A stretch of DNA of 25,993 nt, taken from the IMG/VR virus record IMGVR_UViG_3300031537_000008, positions 1 through 25,993 of that record, one strand, 5' to 3'. Source of the stretch: a virus. A program made the position numbers and the translations under genes. The notes beneath the pieces are model-generated. The model worked only from the letters and a program-made list of their open reading frames with translations, did not search any database and was not told the origin of the DNA. Positions 6,325 to 21,329 of this stretch are shown piece by piece (position 1 is the stretch's first letter; every line of letters begins with the position of its first letter).

Positions 6325-6579
6325 ATGGAAACTTATAATTTTTTATTTAAAAATAAAGAAAAAATAGATTCTTTAAGAAATTATTTATATAACAATAATC
6401 TTACACTCGAAGAAATAGATAAAAGATTATATGAATTTAGTAAATATTTTTATCTTAAAGGAGTAGATCATGGAAGTAATTTAGAAAAAGAAACACAAGA
6501 AAAAATAAAAAATTTTATTAAGAAAAAAAGGAGTAAAATATTTAATGATATTTTTAATAAAATATTAAATAAAAAATGA
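6325..6579 (+). CDS. Hypothetical protein (84 aa)
   Basis: A small, strongly charged and helical protein with no recognised domain. It begins METYNFLFKNKEKIDSLRNY and ends with a Lys-rich tail. It starts 2 bp after the RHH stop codon, and its TGA overlaps the ATG of repeat protein copy 1 (ATGA), so it is translationally linked to both neighbours. Confidence 0.6.
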   Translation: METYNFLFKNKEKIDSLRNYLYNNNLTLEEIDKRLYEFSKYFYLKGVDHGSNLEKETQEKIKNFIKKKRSKIFNDIFNKILNKK

Positions 6580-7706
6580 AAAAAAGTGTAAAAAAAGAAA
6601 TCGAATTTTTAATCCAAGAATTGGATCTTAATTGCTCTGTTGAAGAATTTGAAGACAAAGTTAGTTGGATGCTTATATCTTTATCCCAAAATCTCTCTGA
6701 AGATTTTATCCTGGAGTTCAAAGATAAAGTTAATTGGATATTAATATCAGAATACCAAAAGCTTTCTGAAGAATTTATCCGGGAATTCAAAGATAAAGTT
6801 AATTGGGTATGTATATCTAAATACCAAAAACTTTCTGAAGAATTTATCCGGGAATTCAAAGATAAAGTTAATTGGAGATGGATATCTATATACCAAAAAC
6901 TTTCTGAAGGATTTATCAGGGAATTTAAAAACAAAGTTAATTGGGATTATATATCAATATATCAAAAGCTTTCTGAAGGGTTTATCAGAGAATTCCAAGA
7001 CAAAGTTGATTGGGAATATATATCTTCATCCAAAAAGCTTTCTGAAATTTTTATCCGGGAATTTAAAGATAAAGTTGATTGGAGATGTATATCTCAACAT
7101 CAAAAACTATCTGAAGATTTTATCCAGGAATTACAAGATAAAGTTATTTGGCTAAATATATCTGCATATCAAAAACTTTCGGAAAACTTTATTAGGGAAT
7201 TTAAAGACAAAGTTATTTGGGTATATATATCTGCATACCAAAAGCTATCAGAAGATTTTATCCGAGAATTCCAAAACAAAGTTAATTGGGATGATATATC
7301 TGCATACCAAAATCTTTCAGAAGGGTTTATACGGGAATTCAATTTAAAAATAGATCCAGGTAATTGGATTTATAAAGACAAAGGATTTAAGCTTAAAAAG
7401 ATAAAAGAAACAGGGCTTTATGAATTTTTAGATGCTGACCATATTTTGGCCTACAAGGGGATAAGATCTGATAGATATTCTAATTTTAACTTCCAATACC
7501 GGTATCTAAAAGGGGAAACATATGAATGCCACTGCGATTGCACAGATGATGAAAACTCCTTTGGCCTTTCTGCTTGGACAGAGGAAAAGGCAAGAAAACA
7601 TTGCAATGAACTAGTAATAAAAGTAAAAATAAATGTTGCCGATATCGGAAGGATAGTCCATGATGGCGGGAAACTTAGGTGCTTTAAATTTACTGTATTG
7701 GATTAA
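6576..7706 (+). CDS. 23-residue repeat protein, copy 1 (10 repeats)
   Basis: A 376-aa protein of a four-member family in this window. Residues 1-24 form a charged head (MKKSVKKEIEFLIQELDLNC...). Residues 25-254 are ten perfect-length 23-residue repeats, each built from FKDKV[ND]W, two variable residues, IS, one variable residue, YQKLSE, one variable residue and FIRE. Residues 255-376 form a tail with ILAYKGIRSDRY, FQYRYLKGETYECHCDC, SFGLSAWTEEKARKHC and IGRIVHDGGKLRC. The repeats look like a helical solenoid for binding a protein partner. The tail has the YKG...FQY...G..Y pattern I associate with the phage domain DUF7666, a tentative match. Variable positions cluster after the Trp and around the loop, as expected for a binding surface. 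Function unknown. Confidence 0.85.
   Translation: MKKSVKKEIEFLIQELDLNCSVEEFEDKVSWMLISLSQNLSEDFILEFKDKVNWILISEYQKLSEEFIREFKDKVNWVCISKYQKLSEEFIREFKDKVNWRWISIYQKLSEGFIREFKNKVNWDYISIYQKLSEGFIREFQDKVDWEYISSSKKLSEIFIREFKDKVDWRCISQHQKLSEDFIQELQDKVIWLNISAYQKLSENFIREFKDKVIWVYISAYQKLSEDFIREFQNKVNWDDISAYQNLSEGFIREFNLKIDPGNWIYKDKGFKLKKIKETGLYEFLDADHILAYKGIRSDRYSNFNFQYRYLKGETYECHCDCTDDENSFGLSAWTEEKARKHCNELVIKVKINVADIGRIVHDGGKLRCFKFTVLD
6648..7337 (+). repeat. Tandem 69-bp coding repeat, 10 units
   Basis: Ten consecutive in-frame 69-bp units in repeat protein copy 1, with no partial unit at either end. Many units share stretches such as CTTTCTGAAGAATTTATCCG. Confidence 0.9.
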
Positions 7707-8361: not shown

Positions 8362-9354
8362 ATGAAAAAAAGTGTAAAAATAGAAATCGAATTTTTAATT
8401 AAAAAATTGGATCTTAATTGCTCTGTTGAAGAATTTAAAGACAAAGTTAATTGGGATTATATATTAGAATATCAAAAACTTTCTGAAGGGTTTATCAGAG
8501 AATTCCAAGATGAAGTTTATTGGGGATGTATATCAGAATTCCAAAAGCTCTCTGAAAACTTTATCCGGGAATTTCAAGACAAAGTTAATTGGTTTGATAT
8601 ATCTATATACCAAAAGCTATCTGAAAGTTTTATCAGGGAGTTCAAAAACAAAGTTAATTGGTATTATATCTCTGCATACCAAAAACTTTCCGAAAACTTT
8701 ATTATGGAATTTAAATACAAAGTTTATTGGTATTATATATCTAAATACCAAAATCTCTCTGAAGATTTTATCCGTGAGTTCAAAGATAGAGTTGATTGGT
8801 GGGATATATCTGAATACCAAAAGATTTCTGAAGGCTTTATCCGGGAATTTAAAAATGAAGTTTATTGGGAATGGATATCAAAATACCAAAAGCTATCAGA
8901 AGATTTTATCCGAGAATTTCAAGACAAAGTTGATTGGGATGATATATCAAAATATCAAAAGCTTTCAATAAGTTGTATCCGAGAATTCAATTTAAAAATA
9001 GATCCAGACAATTGGCTCTACAAGAATAAAAAGTTTAAACTTGAAAAAATAAAAAATACAGGGCTATATGAATTTCTTGATGCTGACCATATTTTGGCCT
9101 ATAAGGGGATAAGATCTGACCGGTATTCAAAATTTAACTTCCAGTACCAGTATTTAACAGGAGAAACATATGAATGCCACTGCGATTGCACAGATGAGGA
9201 AAATTCTTTTGGCCTTTCCGCCTGGACAGAAGAAAAGGCAAGAAAACACTGCGGGGAACTAGTAATAAAAGTCAAAATAAATGTTGCCGATATAGGTAGG
9301 ATCGTACATGATGGAGGGAAACTTAGGTGCTTTAAATTTACTGTAATCGATTAA
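8362..9354 (+). CDS. 23-residue repeat protein, copy 2 (8 repeats)
   Basis: A 330-aa family member with the same 24-residue head, eight 23-residue repeats (residues 25-208) and the 122-residue tail. The final repeat diverges to KLSISCIRE and is shared with copy 3, including the following FNLKIDPDNWLYK, showing that copies 2 and 3 are related at their repeat-tail junction. Repeats here use many aromatic residues at the variable positions (YY, WW, EW, FD). The leader TTAAATTATAACC directly before the ATG recurs before the RHH gene at 18187 and, in part, before copy 4. Function unknown. Confidence 0.85.
   Translation: MKKSVKIEIEFLIKKLDLNCSVEEFKDKVNWDYILEYQKLSEGFIREFQDEVYWGCISEFQKLSENFIREFQDKVNWFDISIYQKLSESFIREFKNKVNWYYISAYQKLSENFIMEFKYKVYWYYISKYQNLSEDFIREFKDRVDWWDISEYQKISEGFIREFKNEVYWEWISKYQKLSEDFIREFQDKVDWDDISKYQKLSISCIREFNLKIDPDNWLYKNKKFKLEKIKNTGLYEFLDADHILAYKGIRSDRYSKFNFQYQYLTGETYECHCDCTDEENSFGLSAWTEEKARKHCGELVIKVKINVADIGRIVHDGGKLRCFKFTVID
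8434..8985 (+). repeat. Tandem 69-bp coding repeat, 8 units
   Basis: Eight complete 69-bp units inside repeat protein copy 2, in frame, with no partial unit. Confidence 0.9.
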
Positions 9355-10816: not shown

Positions 10817-12016
10817 TTAATCGATTACAGTAAATTTAGAGCACCTAAGTTTCCCTCCATCATGGACAATCCTTCCGATATCGGCAACATTTATTTTTAC
10901 TTTTATTACCAGTTCCCCGCAGTGTCCCCTTGCCTTTTCCTCCGTCCAGGCAGAAAGGCCAAAGGAGTTTTCATCATTTGTGCAATCGCAGTGGCACTCA
11001 TATGTTTCCCCTTTTAAATATTGGTACTGGAAGTTATAATAAGAATATCTGTCCGATCTTATCCCCTTGTAGGCCAATATGTGGTCAGCATCTAAAAATT
11101 CATAGAGCCCGGTATTTTTTATCTTTTCAAGTTTGAAGTTTTTATCTTTATAGAGCCAATTGTCTGGATCTATTTTTAAATTGAATTCCCGGATACAACT
11201 TATTGAAAGCTTTTGATATTTTGATATATCATCCCAATCAACTTTGTCTTGAAATTCTCGGATAAATTCTTCATAGAGCTTTTGATATTTTGATATACAA
11301 TACCAATTAACTTTGTCTTGGAATTCCCTGATAAAGTTTTCGGAGAGCTTTTGATATTTTGATATATCAAACCAATTAACTTTATCTTTGAACTCTCGGA
11401 TAAATTCTTCAGAAAGATTTTGAAATGCAGATATATTTCCCCAATCAACTTTATATTGAAATTCCCTAATAAAGTTTTCGGAAAGTTTTTGGTATATAGA
11501 TATACATATCCAATTAACTTTGTTTTTGAACTTCCTGATAAATCCTTCAGAAAGATTTTGATATTTTGATATACAATACCAACTAACTTTGTCTTGAAAT
11601 TCCCTGATAAATCCTTCATAAATATTTTGATATTCTGATATATAATACCAATCAACTCTATCTTTGAACTCCCGGATAAAGTTTTCTGAAAGTTTTTGTG
11701 ATTGAGATATCCAAAACCAATCAACTTTATTTTTAAATTCTCGGATAAAACTTTCAGATAGCTTTTGGTGTATAGATATCCATCTCCAATTAACTCTATC
11801 TTGAAATTCACGGATAAAATCTTCAGAGAGATTTTGGTTTTTTGATATATCATACCAACTAACTTCATGTTTTAATTCCCGCATAAATTCTTCAGAAAGA
11901 ATTTGGTATACAGATATAGATCTACAATCAACTATGTCTTTAAATTCTTTAACAGAGCAATCAAGATCCAATTCTTGGATTAAAAATTCGATTTCTTCTT
12001 TTACACTTTTTTTCAT
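10817..12016 (-). CDS. 23-residue repeat protein, copy 3 (11 repeats)
   Basis: The longest family member at 399 aa: 24-residue head, eleven 23-residue repeats (residues 25-277) and the 122-residue tail with the conserved Cys residues (YECHCDC, HCGELVIKV, KLRCSKF). The first repeat is degenerate (the usual W is C, in VDCRSIS). Repeats 3-4 are nearly identical, at DNA level too, to repeats 2-3 of copy 4. The last repeat matches copy 2 instead. The gene therefore looks like a mosaic of the other copies. It lies just downstream of the DnaA-IV-like gene in the replication operon. Function unknown. Confidence 0.85.
   Translation of the reverse strand: MKKSVKEEIEFLIQELDLDCSVKEFKDIVDCRSISVYQILSEEFMRELKHEVSWYDISKNQNLSEDFIREFQDRVNWRWISIHQKLSESFIREFKNKVDWFWISQSQKLSENFIREFKDRVDWYYISEYQNIYEGFIREFQDKVSWYCISKYQNLSEGFIRKFKNKVNWICISIYQKLSENFIREFQYKVDWGNISAFQNLSEEFIREFKDKVNWFDISKYQKLSENFIREFQDKVNWYCISKYQKLYEEFIREFQDKVDWDDISKYQKLSISCIREFNLKIDPDNWLYKDKNFKLEKIKNTGLYEFLDADHILAYKGIRSDRYSYYNFQYQYLKGETYECHCDCTNDENSFGLSAWTEEKARGHCGELVIKVKINVADIGRIVHDGGKLRCSKFTVID
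11186..11944 (-). repeat. Tandem 69-bp coding repeat, 11 units
   Basis: Eleven complete 69-bp units in repeat protein copy 3. Positions 11662-11809 are 146/148 identical to 18911-19058 in copy 4. Confidence 0.9.
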
Positions 12017-12618: not shown

Positions 12619-13998
12619 TTAAAACTCCACTTTATTATATTTATCATTAAATTCATCAAAATCAGATATTTTTGTAAAATTATGATCGTGTTTTAACTTT
12701 ATATCACCAAGTTTTCCGTTTCTATATTTTCTAAATAATATTTCTAAAATACCTTTTGTGCTCATACCATCTTCAAACTCGGTAAAACCATAATAACTTG
12801 GCCTATATAAAAAAGATACTATATCAGCATCTTGTTCTATTGCACCACTTTCACGTATATCAGATAATTGAGGCTTTTTATCAATTCTTGATTCACAAGA
12901 ACGGTTTAATTGTGACAAAGCAATAATAGGTATATCAAGTTCTTTTGCCAAAATTTTTAAATTTCTACTTATATCGCTTACTTCTTGTTCCCTATTTCCC
13001 TTATTATTTGAATATATTAATTGAAGATAATCAATAAATATTATTTTTATATTATGTTTAATTTTTAACCTTCTTGCTTTTGCCCTTAATTCTAAAATTG
13101 TCATATTACTTGTATCATCTATAAAAAGGGAAGCCTTTTCTAATTTAGCTTGTGCCTCTTCTACTTTTAACCATTCATCAGAAGTAAACTTACCATTCAT
13201 ATATTTTTCTGATTCTATACCAGTCAATGAACTGTTTCCTTTTTTATATAGTTCTACTTTGCTCATTTCATATGAAAAATAGGCTACAGGTTCTTTAAAT
13301 ATTAAAGATATATTTATGGCCATTTGAAAAGCTAAAGTAGTTTTTCCCATTGATGGACGTGCTGCTATTATTATTAAATTTGTATTTTGCCACCCATTTG
13401 TATGTTTATCAAGATTTGATATACCTGTTTGTATTCCAGGTACATAATTGTCATTAATTGATAGCTCTTCTAAATTTCTTATTGTATCTATACCAATATT
13501 TCCAATTAATACAGGTTCGTTTATTATATTTTTATTGGTAATATTAAAAATACAGTTCCCTGCATAATCCAATGTATCAGATAAATCAATACTTTCATCA
13601 AATGCCCTATTTTGTATTTCTGTAGATACCCTTATCAATTCCCTTTGTATATATTTTTGTTGTATTATACGGGCATGGAATTCAATATGTGCGGCAGATG
13701 CAATCCTATCTGTCAATTTAGTAAGATAAGCTGGCCCACCTACTAATCCTAAATATCCATTTTTCCTTAATTGTTCTATAACTGTAAGTATATCAATTGC
13801 TTCATTTTTCTTAAATAAATCAAGTATTGAAGAATATATTTTTTGATGTTGGTCATGATAAAAACTTTCTGGCCTTATAATATCTATTATTTCTATCAAA
13901 GAATCTTTTTCTAACATTATGCCACCTAATACAGCTTCTTCTAAATCAATAGCCTGTGGGGGTATTTTACCAAATCCAATTTCTATGTTTTTGTTCAT
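12619..13998 (-). CDS. dnaB: Replicative DNA helicase DnaB
   Basis: A 459-aa hexameric 5'-3' fork helicase. The N-terminal DnaB domain (PPQAIDLEEAVLGGIML at about 13-29) is followed by the RecA-like motor: Walker A ARPSMGKTTLA at 213-223, the FSYEMS segment near 241-246, Walker B IIFIDYLQLI at 319-328, SQLNR at 362-366, and DIRESGAIEQDADIV at 380-394. Length is normal for the family. It lies downstream of the putative initiator and of a small HTH gene. It would be recruited to the origin by the initiator's C-terminal region; no separate DnaC-type loader is seen in the window. Confidence 0.96.
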   Translation of the reverse strand: MNKNIEIGFGKIPPQAIDLEEAVLGGIMLEKDSLIEIIDIIRPESFYHDQHQKIYSSILDLFKKNEAIDILTVIEQLRKNGYLGLVGGPAYLTKLTDRIASAAHIEFHARIIQQKYIQRELIRVSTEIQNRAFDESIDLSDTLDYAGNCIFNITNKNIINEPVLIGNIGIDTIRNLEELSINDNYVPGIQTGISNLDKHTNGWQNTNLIIIAARPSMGKTTLAFQMAINISLIFKEPVAYFSYEMSKVELYKKGNSSLTGIESEKYMNGKFTSDEWLKVEEAQAKLEKASLFIDDTSNMTILELRAKARRLKIKHNIKIIFIDYLQLIYSNNKGNREQEVSDISRNLKILAKELDIPIIALSQLNRSCESRIDKKPQLSDIRESGAIEQDADIVSFLYRPSYYGFTEFEDGMSTKGILEILFRKYRNGKLGDIKLKHDHNFTKISDFDEFNDKYNKVEF

Positions 13999-14054: not shown

Positions 14055-14225
14055 TTAAATTTCAAAATTTTCTTTTATAAATTTATTTAACGGTTCTTCC
14101 CATTTTTTTGATAATTTTTGAACCCCGTTTACTGCTTTTATCAACGTACTGTCAGGCATGTTTAATTCTTGTTCAATAGCACGAATTTTCACAAACTTTT
14201 TATTTTTTTTTAACCAATCAAGCAT
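14055..14225 (-). CDS. Small helix-turn-helix protein (56 aa)
   Basis: A minus-strand ORF from ATG 14225 to TAA 14055. It begins MLDWLKKNKKFVKIRAIEQE and continues LNMPDSTLIKAVNGVQKLS, which reads as a compact helix-turn-helix (IRAIEQELNMPDSTLIKAV). The tail contains KKWEEPLNKFIKENFEI. A well-formed Bacteroidota-type promoter lies 25 bp upstream, so the gene probably heads a transcript that continues into dnaB. Likely a DNA-binding regulator; target unknown. Confidence 0.65.
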   Translation of the reverse strand: MLDWLKKNKKFVKIRAIEQELNMPDSTLIKAVNGVQKLSKKWEEPLNKFIKENFEI

Positions 14226-14317: not shown

Positions 14318-15082
14318 TCATTGCTGCCCTGGATATCTTAATGTAGGTACTTTAGTAGGCAATTTATTTTGGATATAATCTTCTTTTTTTAGCGGATAAA
14401 AATCAGTCCATCCAGAATCTACTGTTTTTACAAGTATTTTAAGTGCTATTGAATAATCATTATTTGAATATTCTTTTATTTTGTTTAATTGTGATTTTTT
14501 TGCACGGGAAGTTAATGAAGCTTTCTTTTTTTGTTTTAAAGGCAAAAATTCATTTATCCAAATGTTTTTAAATTCATCTTTAAAAAAATCAAAATTTTCA
14601 TAAATTTCAATGTCTTTTATTTGATCATTAGTATTAGGATCTATATTAGTATTATAATACTCACAATTTTCGTTGAGAGGGCCCTCACAATTTTCGTTGA
14701 GAGGGGCTCTCAATTTTCGTTGAGAGGTGTCAATTTTCGTTGAGAGGTAATTATCAATTTTTATTAGCATATTCCAATTGATCCCAGTTTTATAATAACT
14801 CTTCCCCAATTCTTTTGATTTCGGGTGCCTTTCTAATATTTTATAATTTATAAGATTATTGATCCTATTGATAATCCCGGTTTTTGTTTTTATTTTTAGA
14901 ATAGGCATATCATTAATAACTTTTGTATGCGATATCCAAAACCATATCCCATCGTTATCAGTATATTTATCTGAAGAAGGATAAAAGTTACAGATATAAT
15001 CAAATATTGCCAAATCAATTATATCTAGTTTAGGAAAATAAGTTTCACTTGCAATTTGATTTATGTTTATGAAATAATTCAT
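14318..15082 (-). CDS. Replication initiator / replisome organizer
   Basis: A 254-aa protein with an N-terminal winged-helix-like domain (about residues 1-105, including LDIIDLAIFDYICNFYP and GIINRINNLINYKILERHP). A low-complexity linker at 112-141 follows. The C-terminal helical domain (about 165-232) has YSIALKILVKTVDSGWTDFYP, a pattern typical of phage replisome organizers and DnaD/lambda-O-like proteins that contact the helicase. The DNA encoding the linker carries four 17-bp iterons, the same arrangement as in lambda gene O. The gene lies upstream of dnaB in the same direction. It would bind the iterons and deliver DnaB. Exact family placement needs a profile search. Confidence 0.75.
   Translation of the reverse strand: MNYFININQIASETYFPKLDIIDLAIFDYICNFYPSSDKYTDNDGIWFWISHTKVINDMPILKIKTKTGIINRINNLINYKILERHPKSKELGKSYYKTGINWNMLIKIDNYLSTKIDTSQRKLRAPLNENCEGPLNENCEYYNTNIDPNTNDQIKDIEIYENFDFFKDEFKNIWINEFLPLKQKKKASLTSRAKKSQLNKIKEYSNNDYSIALKILVKTVDSGWTDFYPLKKEDYIQNKLPTKVPTLRYPGQQ
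14664..14747. repeat. Four 17-bp iterons, candidate replication origin
   Basis: The sequence CAATTTTCGTTGAGAGG occurs four times without mismatch at 14664-14680, 14688-14704, 14711-14727 and 14731-14747, with start-to-start distances of 24, 23 and 20 bp. All copies are in the same orientation and lie inside the initiator gene. The copies are read in three different frames of the protein (LSTKID, TSQRKL, and PLNENCE twice), so it is the DNA sequence that repeats, not a peptide. AT-rich DNA follows at about 14540-14660, a plausible unwinding element. Confidence 0.8.
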
Positions 15083-17244: not shown

Positions 17245-17955
17245 TTAAAAAATACCTATACTAAAATCAACATCATTTATATTTTTTAATCCTTTTTCAA
17301 CTAATTTTAATTGTTTATTATAATAATCCTTCATTGCAATTAATTGTTCTTTGCTAAATTTATAGCTCTTTAATTCATTTTTTCTTTCATTTAGGTTATT
17401 ATATCTTTCAACCCCTATCCTTTCAATTAATCCGTCCCTAAACCCGTTTTCATTGCCATGGCCATATTTATTACAATATTTTAATTGCCCAAAAACATTG
17501 TCAGGATGAAATATCAATCCAATATATAATTCAGCTTTAAAAAAATGTCCTGCATCATAATCTGAAATATTGAATGGCAATTGTTTATTGCAACAAATAC
17601 ATTTTTTACCATGATCACGTATCCTAATTAATTTTTGAAATGGTTTCCTGGCTTCTTGTATACATGATGCAATTGTTTTATTTTCAAGTTTTTTGTTTTT
17701 ATTTTCAAGTTTTTTGTTTTTATTTTCAAGTTTTTTATTCTTATCAGCTCTTTTTTTTCCTAATAATTTAGATTTTTCTAAAATTATTTTACCTTCAGAT
17801 GTTTCCAATAACCATTTTGTATAACATCCACATGATATTCCTAATCCATATTTGAAATTAGGCTTATTATATTTAATTTTAGGTATAGATTTGTTACACC
17901 CTTTATAATTTTTTGCTTTACCAATGCCTTTTTTACATATTTTATAATTTATCAT
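17245..17955 (-). CDS. ninG: NinG/Rap recombination nuclease
   Basis: A 236-aa protein resembling the lambda NinG (Rap) family, structure-specific endonucleases that act on Holliday junctions and D-loops during phage recombination. The signature is a zinc/HNH-like core: CICCNKQLPF (119-128), the catalytic-type DAGHFF (134-139), FHPDNVFGQLKYCN (149-162), and NGFRDGLIERIG (170-181). An N-terminal Cys-containing segment (ISCGCYTKWLLETSEG) matches the family's usual beginning. A Lys/Glu linker at about 73-93 contains three copies of KKLENKN encoded by a 21-bp tandem repeat. It lies among replication and recombination genes, as in lambdoid phages. Confidence 0.85.
   Translation of the reverse strand: MINYKICKKGIGKAKNYKGCNKSIPKIKYNKPNFKYGLGISCGCYTKWLLETSEGKIILEKSKLLGKKRADKNKKLENKNKKLENKNKKLENKTIASCIQEARKPFQKLIRIRDHGKKCICCNKQLPFNISDYDAGHFFKAELYIGLIFHPDNVFGQLKYCNKYGHGNENGFRDGLIERIGVERYNNLNERKNELKSYKFSKEQLIAMKDYYNKQLKLVEKGLKNINDVDFSIGIF
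17680..17742. repeat. 21-bp tandem repeat, 3 units, within ninG
   Basis: ATTTTCAAGTTTTTTG followed by TTTTT is repeated at 17680-17700 and 17701-17721, with a slightly diverged third unit at 17722-17742. It encodes three KKLENKN units in the NinG linker. Being 21 bp long, gain or loss of a unit keeps the frame. Confidence 0.85.
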
Positions 17956-18203: not shown

Positions 18204-19196
18204 TTAATCGATTACAGTAAATTTAGAGCATCGTAATTTCCCGCCATTGTGGACAATCCTGCCTATATCGGAAATATTTATTTTGACTTTTATTACTAGT
18301 TCATTGCAGTGTTTTCTTGCCTTTTCCTCTGTCCAGGCAGAAAGGCCAAAAGAATTTTCTGAACTTGTACAATCGCAGTGGCACTCATATGTTCCCCCTT
18401 TTAGATACTGGTACTGGAAATTAAATTTTGAATACCGGTCAGATCTTATTCCCTTGTAGGCCAATATATGGTCAGCATCAAGAAATTCATAGATCCCGGT
18501 TTCTTTTATCTTTTTAAGCTTAAATTCTTTGTCTTTATAAATCCAATTACCTGGATCTATTTTTAAATTGAATTCCAGGATAAATCCTTCTGAAAGCTTT
18601 TGGTATGAAAATATACATCCCCAATCAACTTTGTCTTTGAATTCCCTGATAAATCCTTCAGATAGCTTTTGAAATTTAGATATACATCCCCAATTAACTT
18701 TTTCTTTGAACTCCCTGATAAAGCCTTCGGAAAGCTTTTGAAATTTAGATATATATTCCCAATCAACTCTATCTTTTAATTCTCGGATAAAATCTTCAGA
18801 AAGCTTTTTTGATTGAGATATCCATTCCCAATCAACTTTGTTTTGAAATTCCCGGATAAAGTTTTCGGAAAGCTTTTGATATGCAGATATATTCATCCAA
18901 TCAACTTTGTCTTTGAACTCCCGGATAAAGTTTTCTGAAAGTTTTTGTGATTGAGATATCCAAAACCAATCAACTTTATTTTTAAATTCTCGGATAAAAC
19001 TTTCAGAAAGTTTTTGGTGTATAGATATCCATCTCCAATTAACTCTATCTTGAAATTCCCGCATAAATTCTTCAGAAAGAATTTGGTATACAGAGATATG
19101 ATACCAATCAACTTTGTCTTTAAATTCTTCAACAGAGCAATTAAGCTCCAAATCTTTTATTAAAGAAACAATTTCTTTTTTTACACTTTTTTTCAT
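18204..19196 (-). CDS. 23-residue repeat protein, copy 4 (8 repeats)
   Basis: A 330-aa family member: 24-residue head (more diverged, MKKSVKKEIVSLIKDLELNC), eight repeats (25-208) and the conserved tail, in which NVADIGR becomes NISDIGR. Repeats 2-3 share a nearly identical DNA block with repeats 3-4 of copy 3. The 3' flank (TAATCGATTAATAATTAAAT) is shared with copy 2, so duplication extends beyond the reading frame. It sits between the nuclease-FtsK gene and an RHH gene. Function unknown. Confidence 0.85.
   Translation of the reverse strand: MKKSVKKEIVSLIKDLELNCSVEEFKDKVDWYHISVYQILSEEFMREFQDRVNWRWISIHQKLSESFIREFKNKVDWFWISQSQKLSENFIREFKDKVDWMNISAYQKLSENFIREFQNKVDWEWISQSKKLSEDFIRELKDRVDWEYISKFQKLSEGFIREFKEKVNWGCISKFQKLSEGFIREFKDKVDWGCIFSYQKLSEGFILEFNLKIDPGNWIYKDKEFKLKKIKETGIYEFLDADHILAYKGIRSDRYSKFNFQYQYLKGGTYECHCDCTSSENSFGLSAWTEEKARKHCNELVIKVKINISDIGRIVHNGGKLRCSKFTVID
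18573..19124 (-). repeat. Tandem 69-bp coding repeat, 8 units
   Basis: Eight complete 69-bp units in repeat protein copy 4. The block 18911-19058 matches 11662-11809 of copy 3 with two mismatches in 148 bp. Confidence 0.9.
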
Positions 19197-19205
19197 GGTT
19201 ATAAT

Positions 19206-21329
19206 TTATTTTTTATAAAATCCTTGAAACCTTATTATATTTAAATATTCTGGTGATTTTATTAAACCATCTCCCCGCCCATTTAATGCCTCGGCACCTG
19301 GTTCATCTATTACTACCATTGAATCTATATCTTTAGGTACCCTAAAACATACCTGTACAGGAAAGTTTACCTTGGCATCTCCTGTTATAACTTTTGTGGA
19401 TGCACGTTGGGTAGCAGCTATTATCCTAAAACCTGATGATCGCCCTTTTTGTAATAAAATCTTTAAATTTTCCTCAAGTGTTTTTTTACGTCCAACAACT
19501 TTCATTTTCATTTTAGGAATAGGATCAGATATACTATCACCAAATATGCCTTTAATTTTTTTAGGGGCATAATATCCATCCTGTACTTCCTCTATTATAT
19601 CCAGTTCTTTTCCTTTCTTTGAATTTGCAACGGCATCTGCAAATTCATCAAAAAATATTAGTGTTGTTTTTTTTGACCCAGATTTTACACGTAATTCCAT
19701 TTCTTCAACTAATAACATCATTTGCATTTCAATATCTTCAATATCATAAAATACCTTGACATTGTTTATAGAAGAATAATCTGTAAATTCATATTTTGGA
19801 TCAAATATATATATATCTTCTATGCCCCCTAATAATGCATATTCAACTGTTGATTTCAGAAAAATAGTCTTTCCGGATCCGGTTGCACCACACACAAGCA
19901 TATGTGGAGTAGAATGGTTTTCATGGTCCCAGGCTACTATCTGCTGAAAATTGTCCATGCCTAAAGGTATCCTTGAACCTTCAAGCTTTGAACTGTCCCA
20001 ATATAGATTAGATGAGTTTATTTTTACAGATTCAATTGCTAAATATGATTTTCCATTATGTACGAACAAATCTTTATATATCCGTACATTTGAAACATTA
20101 AGTGCATTGGCAATATCAAGTTTATGCCTGTTTATTATAGAAATTGGGACACCGGCATTTACTTCCAATAAATAAGAATAACTTGAATATCCTTCAAATA
20201 TATGTTGTACTTTTGATATTATCCCAAAAGATCTTAATACATGTTCTATTTTTTCTTCATTTTTCATATCTTTATTGCTCAAATCATATGGTATAAATTG
20301 TTCTGTATATTTTTTAAAGTTCTTTAATATAGTTGGGCTTATTGTGGCCAAGGAAGAATCCCTTATTTTTCTTAAACGTTCTTTTATCATTTCCTTTTTT
20401 GAATCTGGGACATCAAAATCTTCTATTTCTGAAATCATTGTTTTTGCCCAAAAAATATGTATTTCTGCTTTATCTATAAAATTATCGTTCTCATTTATAA
20501 GATAAACATAATCAGGGTTGCTTATTGCCTCAATCATCCTACGTAATGGTTCATATAACATTGCTTCATAAAGCCTTCTTGTACCATCGTCCATTATTAC
20601 CTTAAAAATTTCTAATTGTGATGTTCCATGCCTGTTTTTTGCATATTTGTTTTCTATGAACCAAACCTCATCTATCTTTTTACCTGTTTCTGATTCATAT
20701 CCCAATGTATAAATAATTGCCTGTTTTGAAGCTGAAAATTTTATGTCCTGTTCATCAGAAAACAAACGTTTTGATTTATCGTCTATTATTACTGTTTTAC
20801 CATCATTTGTTTCAACTACACGGTCTATTATAATATGGCATGGAAGGGGGATATCTACCCCATTTATTTTTAACCAGGTAGAAAATTTATATTCTGAACA
20901 TATTACTTTTTTTATTTCAGATTTATACTTAGTAATTTCTGACATAAAATTTCTTAATAGGACAGAAACTATTTTTGTAGCAGAAAGTTTACATTCTTCA
21001 ATACTTGGTGTTGTTTTTTGTATTTTCCAAAGATCGGCAGGTATATCTTCTATATATTCAAAGGCATTTTTTTCAAGATCTACTATGTCCCTGTCAATTT
21101 TATTGATCAAACAGGAAAAATATATGTCAAGTGATGAATGATAAGCTTGTCCTGCAACTGTTACAGGGGATAGTTTTGATTTTATATTATAAATATATAA
21201 CATTTCAAAAGCTTTTTCATTCCTTGCAAAAGTTGATACTTTGGAATATGACCAACTATCTATCAAATAATTAGAAAATAATTCTTCTTGTTCTTCTGGG
21301 GACATGTCCCTATATTTATGTGCTACCAT
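19206..21329 (-). CDS. RecB-like nuclease fused to FtsK/SpoIIIE-type DNA translocase
   Basis: A 707-aa two-part enzyme. The N-terminal third looks like a PD-(D/E)XK nuclease of the RecB/Cas4 type: YSKVSTFARNEKAFEM near 28-43, H64 in GQAYHSS, D169 in HIIIDR, the D-x-K core IIDDKSK at 181-187, and the RecB-family QxxxY at 203-207. No Cas4 iron-sulfur cysteines are seen. From about 360 the sequence follows FtsK: beta-domain-like HKLDIANALNVSNVRIY (402-418), Walker A GATGSGKT at 481-488, Walker B TLIFFDEFAD at 556-565, and LLQKGRSSGFRIIAATQRAS at 625-644. It could translocate on phage DNA while degrading or trimming ends. FtsK's gamma orienting domain is absent. Confidence 0.8.
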   Translation of the reverse strand: MVAHKYRDMSPEEQEELFSNYLIDSWSYSKVSTFARNEKAFEMLYIYNIKSKLSPVTVAGQAYHSSLDIYFSCLINKIDRDIVDLEKNAFEYIEDIPADLWKIQKTTPSIEECKLSATKIVSVLLRNFMSEITKYKSEIKKVICSEYKFSTWLKINGVDIPLPCHIIIDRVVETNDGKTVIIDDKSKRLFSDEQDIKFSASKQAIIYTLGYESETGKKIDEVWFIENKYAKNRHGTSQLEIFKVIMDDGTRRLYEAMLYEPLRRMIEAISNPDYVYLINENDNFIDKAEIHIFWAKTMISEIEDFDVPDSKKEMIKERLRKIRDSSLATISPTILKNFKKYTEQFIPYDLSNKDMKNEEKIEHVLRSFGIISKVQHIFEGYSSYSYLLEVNAGVPISIINRHKLDIANALNVSNVRIYKDLFVHNGKSYLAIESVKINSSNLYWDSSKLEGSRIPLGMDNFQQIVAWDHENHSTPHMLVCGATGSGKTIFLKSTVEYALLGGIEDIYIFDPKYEFTDYSSINNVKVFYDIEDIEMQMMLLVEEMELRVKSGSKKTTLIFFDEFADAVANSKKGKELDIIEEVQDGYYAPKKIKGIFGDSISDPIPKMKMKVVGRKKTLEENLKILLQKGRSSGFRIIAATQRASTKVITGDAKVNFPVQVCFRVPKDIDSMVVIDEPGAEALNGRGDGLIKSPEYLNIIRFQGFYKK

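Follow-up and report, generated by a model that had tools for sequence, protein, structure and literature searches.

Comparative analysis makes it very likely that a segment of the viral contig IMGVR_UViG_3300031537_000008 (IMG/VR; positions 1 to 25,993, the whole 25,993-nucleotide stretch being referred to here as the window) is a theta-type replication origin embedded in the gene for its own initiator. Intragenic origins of this kind have precedents in phage lambda and in staphylococcal plasmids. The case presented below draws on an array of dyad iterons within the gene, the retention of that array in diverged relatives, covariation between the sites and the predicted recognition helix, and an adjoining A+T-rich tract.

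The initiator gene and its product

The initiator (replisome organizer) gene occupies positions 14318–15082 on the minus strand and encodes 254 amino acids. Its product matches the PHROG 428 replication initiation protein (E 2.8e-5), and relatives are annotated as RepO or DNA replication protein; no Pfam family was matched, a search of NCBIfam returned no initiator family, sequence searches of the PDB were uninformative, and tblastn against plasmids gave no match. An AlphaFold2 model, built from a shallow alignment of 26 sequences, predicts a winged helix with confidence for residues 1–110 (14753–15082, minus strand; pLDDT about 95 over most of the domain), followed by a disordered linker whose start coincides with the stretch containing the iterons. 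The model and the PHROG match together bear out the winged-helix replisome organizer proposed in the earlier note on this DNA. DSSP applied to the model places the predicted recognition helix at residues 67–79 (14846–14884, minus strand), including residue 68. The C-terminal part (14318–14605, minus strand), modeled with low confidence and swapped between phages among the relatives, is a proposed helicase or primosome recruiting module. Top PDB matches to the N-terminal model in Foldseek include the RepA_N N-terminal domains 4pql, 4pt7, and 5kbj (TM 0.56–0.59, probability 0.98–1.00; E 0.009–0.08), with CodY- and MarR-type folds close behind; RepA_N as the nearest solved fold is, at a best E of 0.009, suggestive only.

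Iterons within the initiator gene

The 17-mer CAATTTTCGTTGAGAGG occurs in four exact copies within the initiator gene, at 14664, 14688, 14711, and 14731, with the spacings of 24, 23, and 20 along the window that had been reported previously. Read in the direction of the gene, the iterons take the form CCTCTCAACGAAAATTG and begin at gene nucleotides 336, 356, 379, and 403 (spacings 20, 23, and 24). All are on the minus strand: iteron 1 at 14731–14747 in frame 2, iteron 2 at 14711–14727 in frame 1, and iterons 3 (14688–14704) and 4 (14664–14680) both in frame 0. The copies thus fall in three reading frames, as the earlier note had it, and encode in gene order the peptides (Y)LSTKID, TSQRKL, PLNENC, and PLNENC; the note had listed LSTKID, TSQRKL, and PLNENCE.

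The number of iterons is far above chance. Dinucleotide-shuffled sequence yields 0.05 expected matches at up to three mismatches, with four reached in no shuffle; at the same threshold, the window contains the four intragenic copies and no others. Similarly, the longest k-mer present in four copies in the initiator gene is 17 nucleotides, as compared with 6–8 in 500 synonymous-codon shuffles. The sequences between iterons (ACA, AGAGCC, and TGAGGGC) are unlike one another, which speaks against simple recent tandem duplication. In each copy, the 17-mer makes up the conserved 5′ portion of a dyad of about 20 bp, CTCTCAA-cgaaaa-TTGAGAG, with an A-rich center and a variable 3′ half; the dyad is perfect in iteron 2 (CTCTCAACGAAAATTGAGAG, 14707–14726) and imperfect in the other three copies. 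The exact 17-bp copies described earlier hold; their inverted-repeat form had been overlooked.

An exact search of IMG/VR for the iteron returned one other match, on a contig (L005) that is 98.9% identical in the initiator part and is uninformative on selection because it is too similar. GC skew along the window, which here tracks gene strand, shows no switch at the iterons, and Rfam and tRNA scans gave no match.

Relatives of the initiator and conservation of layout

About 32 distinct members of the N-terminal domain family, not independent of one another, were recovered from IMG/VR, GTDB contigs, and phage genomes; they lie on viral and MAG contigs as well as in phage genomes, few of them coming from surveys that covered 380 and 369 genomes. 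The records imply hosts among the Bacteroidota, Campylobacter, gammaproteobacteria, and candidate phyla, and the MAG labels may reflect mis-binned phage contigs. The first distant relative came from Elizabethkingia phage TCUEAP2; its initiator shares 43% identity across residues 1–135 and has four boxes at the same place, with spacings of 20/22/23 and a sequence of its own, CCCCTAAACGAAAGTTTAG.

Comparison of iterons among homologs had been suggested in the earlier note as a check, and it shows that nearly all relatives keep two to six dyad repeats at the same gene position, each gene with its own site sequence; the exceptions are L022, L026, L038, and L041, whose arrays are degraded or match poorly. 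Synonymous shuffling of 28 scored genes left the arrays of 21 reached by at most one of 60 shuffles; five arrays were weaker and two (L038 and L041) were not significant by the shuffle score, despite degenerate dyads at the expected position. The first repeat score missed the degenerate arrays of L022, L038, and L041, which are visible only when the sites are read as dyads. Dyad centers, several of them picked by eye from scans of the family arrays, lie at about gene nucleotides 298–451, and their spacings are mostly 20–25 or 30–34 bp, equal to two or three helical turns; the sites of most relatives have an A-rich spacer on the coding strand.

The initiators of TCUEAP2 and of Campylobacter phages PC22 and DA10, annotated as hypothetical protein or RepO, share with the window the N-terminal family, array position, and spacing; their iteron sequences and C-terminal parts are unlike those of the window, and the stretches of their records that were examined have no annotated iterons. 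The presence of the same initiator family and layout in Campylobacter phages and in gammaproteobacterial and candidate-phylum contigs points to an old and widely shared module rather than convergence. The earlier note had found the plan surprising in an apparent Bacteroidota phage and had offered convergence or an ancient module as explanations; the comparison favors the latter and speaks against both convergence and specificity to Bacteroidota. No description of this initiator family was found in the open-access papers searched for iterons in Bacteroidota or crAss-like phages.

Covariation of the recognition helix and the sites

In the subfamily with GTTC-type half-sites, residue 68, close to the start of the predicted recognition helix, covaries with the innermost base of the half-site, Gly with A and Ser with G. 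This residue separates all 13 GTTC-type genes, with the mixed sites of L041 labeled G by majority, and is the best column of the N-terminal domain (z 9.5; next 4.0). By half-site count, 43 of 50 are A in Gly genes and 45 of 52 are G in Ser genes. On the tree, the Gly/Ser label changes roughly four times, and well-supported branches force two or more of these changes. Among genes found later, L098 (Gly) fits the rule fully, L078 matches L036 in both site and helix type, L099 has mixed sites like its relative L041, and L075 and L076 do not fit cleanly. Because residue 68 predicts the inner half-site base, the protein of this family very probably reads these sites, and the covariation is evidence, indirect yet specific, that initiators of the family bind their own iterons; the window gene is not GTTC-type, and the rule bears on it only via family membership.

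The A+T-rich tract

The iterons are followed in the gene by an A+T-rich tract (14600–14659, minus strand), a candidate DNA unwinding element containing ATACTA at 14647–14652 and 14629–14634. The 60 nucleotides after the array are 83% A+T, as compared with 73% for the initiator gene, in line with the AT-rich DNA noted previously; across the family, the 60-nucleotide stretch that follows the last iteron exceeds its gene in A+T content in 29 of 29 arrays measured (mean 77% vs. 65%), a set that includes two initiators (L066 and L067) with another N-terminal domain type. In most genes having an ATACTA-type motif, it starts 14–17 nucleotides past the last dyad center, and it often recurs 15–18 nucleotides further on.

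Codon usage in the relatives' genes differs between the tract and elsewhere: the Thr codon ACT accounts for 32/51 in the tract and 99/334 outside it, and the Asn codon AAT for 134/155 and 258/432, respectively. ACT is also enriched in the tract relative to the equally A+T-rich ACA (p 0.009). This codon excess, together with the motif, suggests constraint at the DNA level; because the motif is almost always kept in one reading frame, protein-level selection on the stretch encoding it may also account for the pattern. The ATACTA-type motif, at 14629–14652 and in the relatives, is possibly a conserved unwinding element. At the corresponding place, pSK41 rep carries GATACTGAT repeats.

Modularity of the initiator

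At residues 185–289, one family initiator (L009:4001–4870) shows 100% identity with the C-terminal part of its counterpart in Bacteroides phage C1_85S2P, the N-terminal domain of which is of another type. This pair records a recent exchange of domains on the downstream side of the iterons, involving 105 C-terminal residues and a gut Bacteroides phage.

The initiators of C1_85S2P, BKO1-3, and Flavobacterium phage FCV-1 have, as here, repeat arrays in the linker of the gene; their N-terminal domains are HTH_36 and not clearly homologous to that of the window, and hhalign of the window initiator against those of C1_85S2P and BKO1-3 was not significant. The linker repeats are convincing in two of these three phages (BKO1-3 and FCV-1) and weaker in C1_85S2P, where 3 of 60 synonymous shuffles reach the score. 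Croceibacter phage P2559S, which shares the C-terminal part only, has no linker repeats. Across these genes, the DNA-binding domain and its sites thus appear to travel together as one cassette. Similarly, in PLE satellites, the RepA_N domain is described as covarying with the origin while the C-terminal part is conserved (PMC8263062). The findings in the present family point to separate exchange of two modules, one for origin specificity and one for replisome recruitment.

Comparison with phage lambda and RepA_N plasmids

Lambda O is a fair analogy for the window origin. Four annotated iterons lie in the middle of the lambda O gene, at nucleotides 349–433 (close to the 336–419 found here), with spacings of 20/24/23 (20/23/24 here). 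In both, the sites are dyads with an A-rich center, A+T-rich DNA comes next, and a helicase function is encoded nearby; in the window, as in the lambda type, it is the linker-coding part of the initiator gene that holds the iterons, the linker being disordered in the model, and the A+T-rich tract is directly beside them. The two differ in the dyad spacer (6 in the window, 7 in lambda), and lambda encodes a loader, P, for the host DnaB whereas the window phage encodes its own DnaB. Phage_rep_O (PF04492) is absent from the Pfam matches of the window initiator; against lambda O itself, BLASTP gave E 0.21 on unrelated parts and hhalign gave no match. The only link to lambda O is indirect, in that a Campylobacter relative and lambda O both match PHROG 678.

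The window likewise has semi-palindromic iterons around an A tract inside the initiator gene, as do RepA_N plasmids, whose iterons are described as semi-palindromic and converging on a central poly-A tract (PMC7145576). RepA_N initiators have a winged-helix N-terminal domain of about 110–120 residues, the best, if only suggestive, solved-structure match to that of the window initiator. The rep gene of pSK41 carries four boxes, GTGTC-aaaag-GACAC, mid-gene at spacings of 23/23/23, followed by A+T-rich DNA; its origin is central in rep, the linker residues encoded by the boxes are dispensable, and the A+T tract is required for tight binding (PMC5703833). As compared with the RepA_N systems of pSK41 and pTZ2162, the window has another C-terminal part, a phage-borne DnaB, and other site sequences. 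Pfam RepA_N (PF06970), which pSK41 Rep matches at 2.5e-32, was not matched by the window initiator, and hhalign returned no profile match between the two proteins. Because the plan is shared and direct homology to either lambda O or pSK41 Rep was not found at the sequence level, the window initiator and origin would work like both and are a formal member of neither. The lambda-like origin of the earlier note is well supported by the relatives, spacing, A+T tract, and protein–site covariation; the closest solved structures, however, appear to be RepA_N initiators rather than lambda O, to which no direct sequence homology was detected.

Genomic context

A phage DnaB-type replicative helicase is encoded downstream of the initiator at 12619–13998 on the minus strand (DnaB_C 1.4e-94; DnaB N 5.3e-31), in agreement with the placement just upstream of dnaB given previously, with a 56-amino-acid ORF, possibly a small HTH protein, in between (14055–14225, minus strand). 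Right after dnaB, the 142-amino-acid product of 12028–12456 matches the DNA-binding domain from the C terminus of DnaA (domain IV; E 1.5e-9) and gives no hit to an AAA+ domain. Elsewhere, 17245–17955 encodes a NinG/Rap-type junction endonuclease (PHROG 171, E 1.1e-42), another lambdoid-style function, and 19206–21329 a 707-amino-acid protein combining a PD-(D/E)XK nuclease, FtsK alpha, and an FtsK/SpoIIIE motor, an unusual exonuclease–translocase fusion. Four paralogous genes on both strands (6576–7706, 8362–9354, 10817–12016, and 18204–19196) share a C-terminal domain and 23-amino-acid tandem repeats (KLSENFIREFKDKVNWxxISxYQ; 69-bp unit), with 17 and 16 overlapping 300-nucleotide repeat copies and further copies on contig L005. 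The crAss-like packaging genes mentioned in the earlier note were not established; the terminase shares about 25% identity with those of Cellulophaga phages and Flavobacterium phages, and it also resembles PHROG 6681.

Proposed mechanism and alternative explanations

Under the proposed mechanism, dimers of the N-terminal winged-helix domain would occupy the four dyad iterons, which are spaced at roughly two helical turns and whose A-rich center would favor a bend; the resulting protein–DNA array would strain and open the adjacent A+T-rich tract (about 14600–14659). The C-terminal part could then recruit and load the helicase; the DnaB that the phage itself encodes downstream is the probable partner, and this step is proposed from gene order and analogy only. 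The iteron-encoded linker would act as a tether whose amino acid sequence hardly matters.

An intragenic operator, at which the initiator would block or adjust transcription of both the initiator gene and dnaB while replication starts elsewhere, is an unlikely alternative. In its favor, a DNA-binding protein whose sites lie within the gene that encodes it could form a roadblock, and MarR-like winged helices are typical regulators. However, no iteron-like site lies near the gene start (up to three mismatches, whole window), the conserved one-sided A+T tract is an origin feature unexpected for an operator, and the PHROG annotation is replication initiation. Very unlikely is a centromere-like partition site, or a packaging site, bound by the initiator: tandem dyads to which winged-helix or similar dimers bind are found at plasmid centromeres too, but no gene for a partner ATPase was identified in the vicinity, the neighbor is dnaB, the relatives are annotated as replication proteins, and conservation extends to the A+T tract.

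Less probable still are mRNA hairpins that would affect translation or the stability of the transcript. The dyads could fold, with a C-GAAA-G loop in several relatives; the sites, however, track the recognition helix of the protein, Rfam yielded no match, and arm mismatches on the coding strand comprise 17 G-T, 48 A-C, and 42 others, a spectrum not mainly of wobble pairs, on which ground this reading was rejected. Least credible is a recent tandem duplication or protein-level repeat with no DNA function, for though all copies match exactly and PLNENC is encoded by two of them, they occupy three frames with unrelated spacers, and the relative at 43% identity keeps the number and spacing of boxes and not their sequence. 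Of the earlier note's proposal that selection or recent duplication had acted on DNA, duplication is thus disfavored by the spacers, and the relatives retain the position and spacing of the sites.

Implications

Reading the segment as an intragenic origin provides a predicted origin for a phage without a cultured host. As judged from their sequences, relatives in very different phages keep this layout while changing the letters of the sites. More tentatively, and with rather more doubt than confidence, we suggest that the family carries a readable protein–DNA specificity code, with helix and sites about 100 bp apart in one gene and both moving as a cassette among C-terminal recruiting modules, and that it may unite RepA_N plasmid and lambda-type phage initiators in one ancient lineage of winged-helix proteins with intragenic origins. 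The combination of a winged-helix initiator, dyad iterons at codons 100–150, and a following A+T tract would offer a signature for locating origins in many unannotated phages; additionally, with reader and sites present in each gene, rules of DNA recognition may be derivable from sequence.
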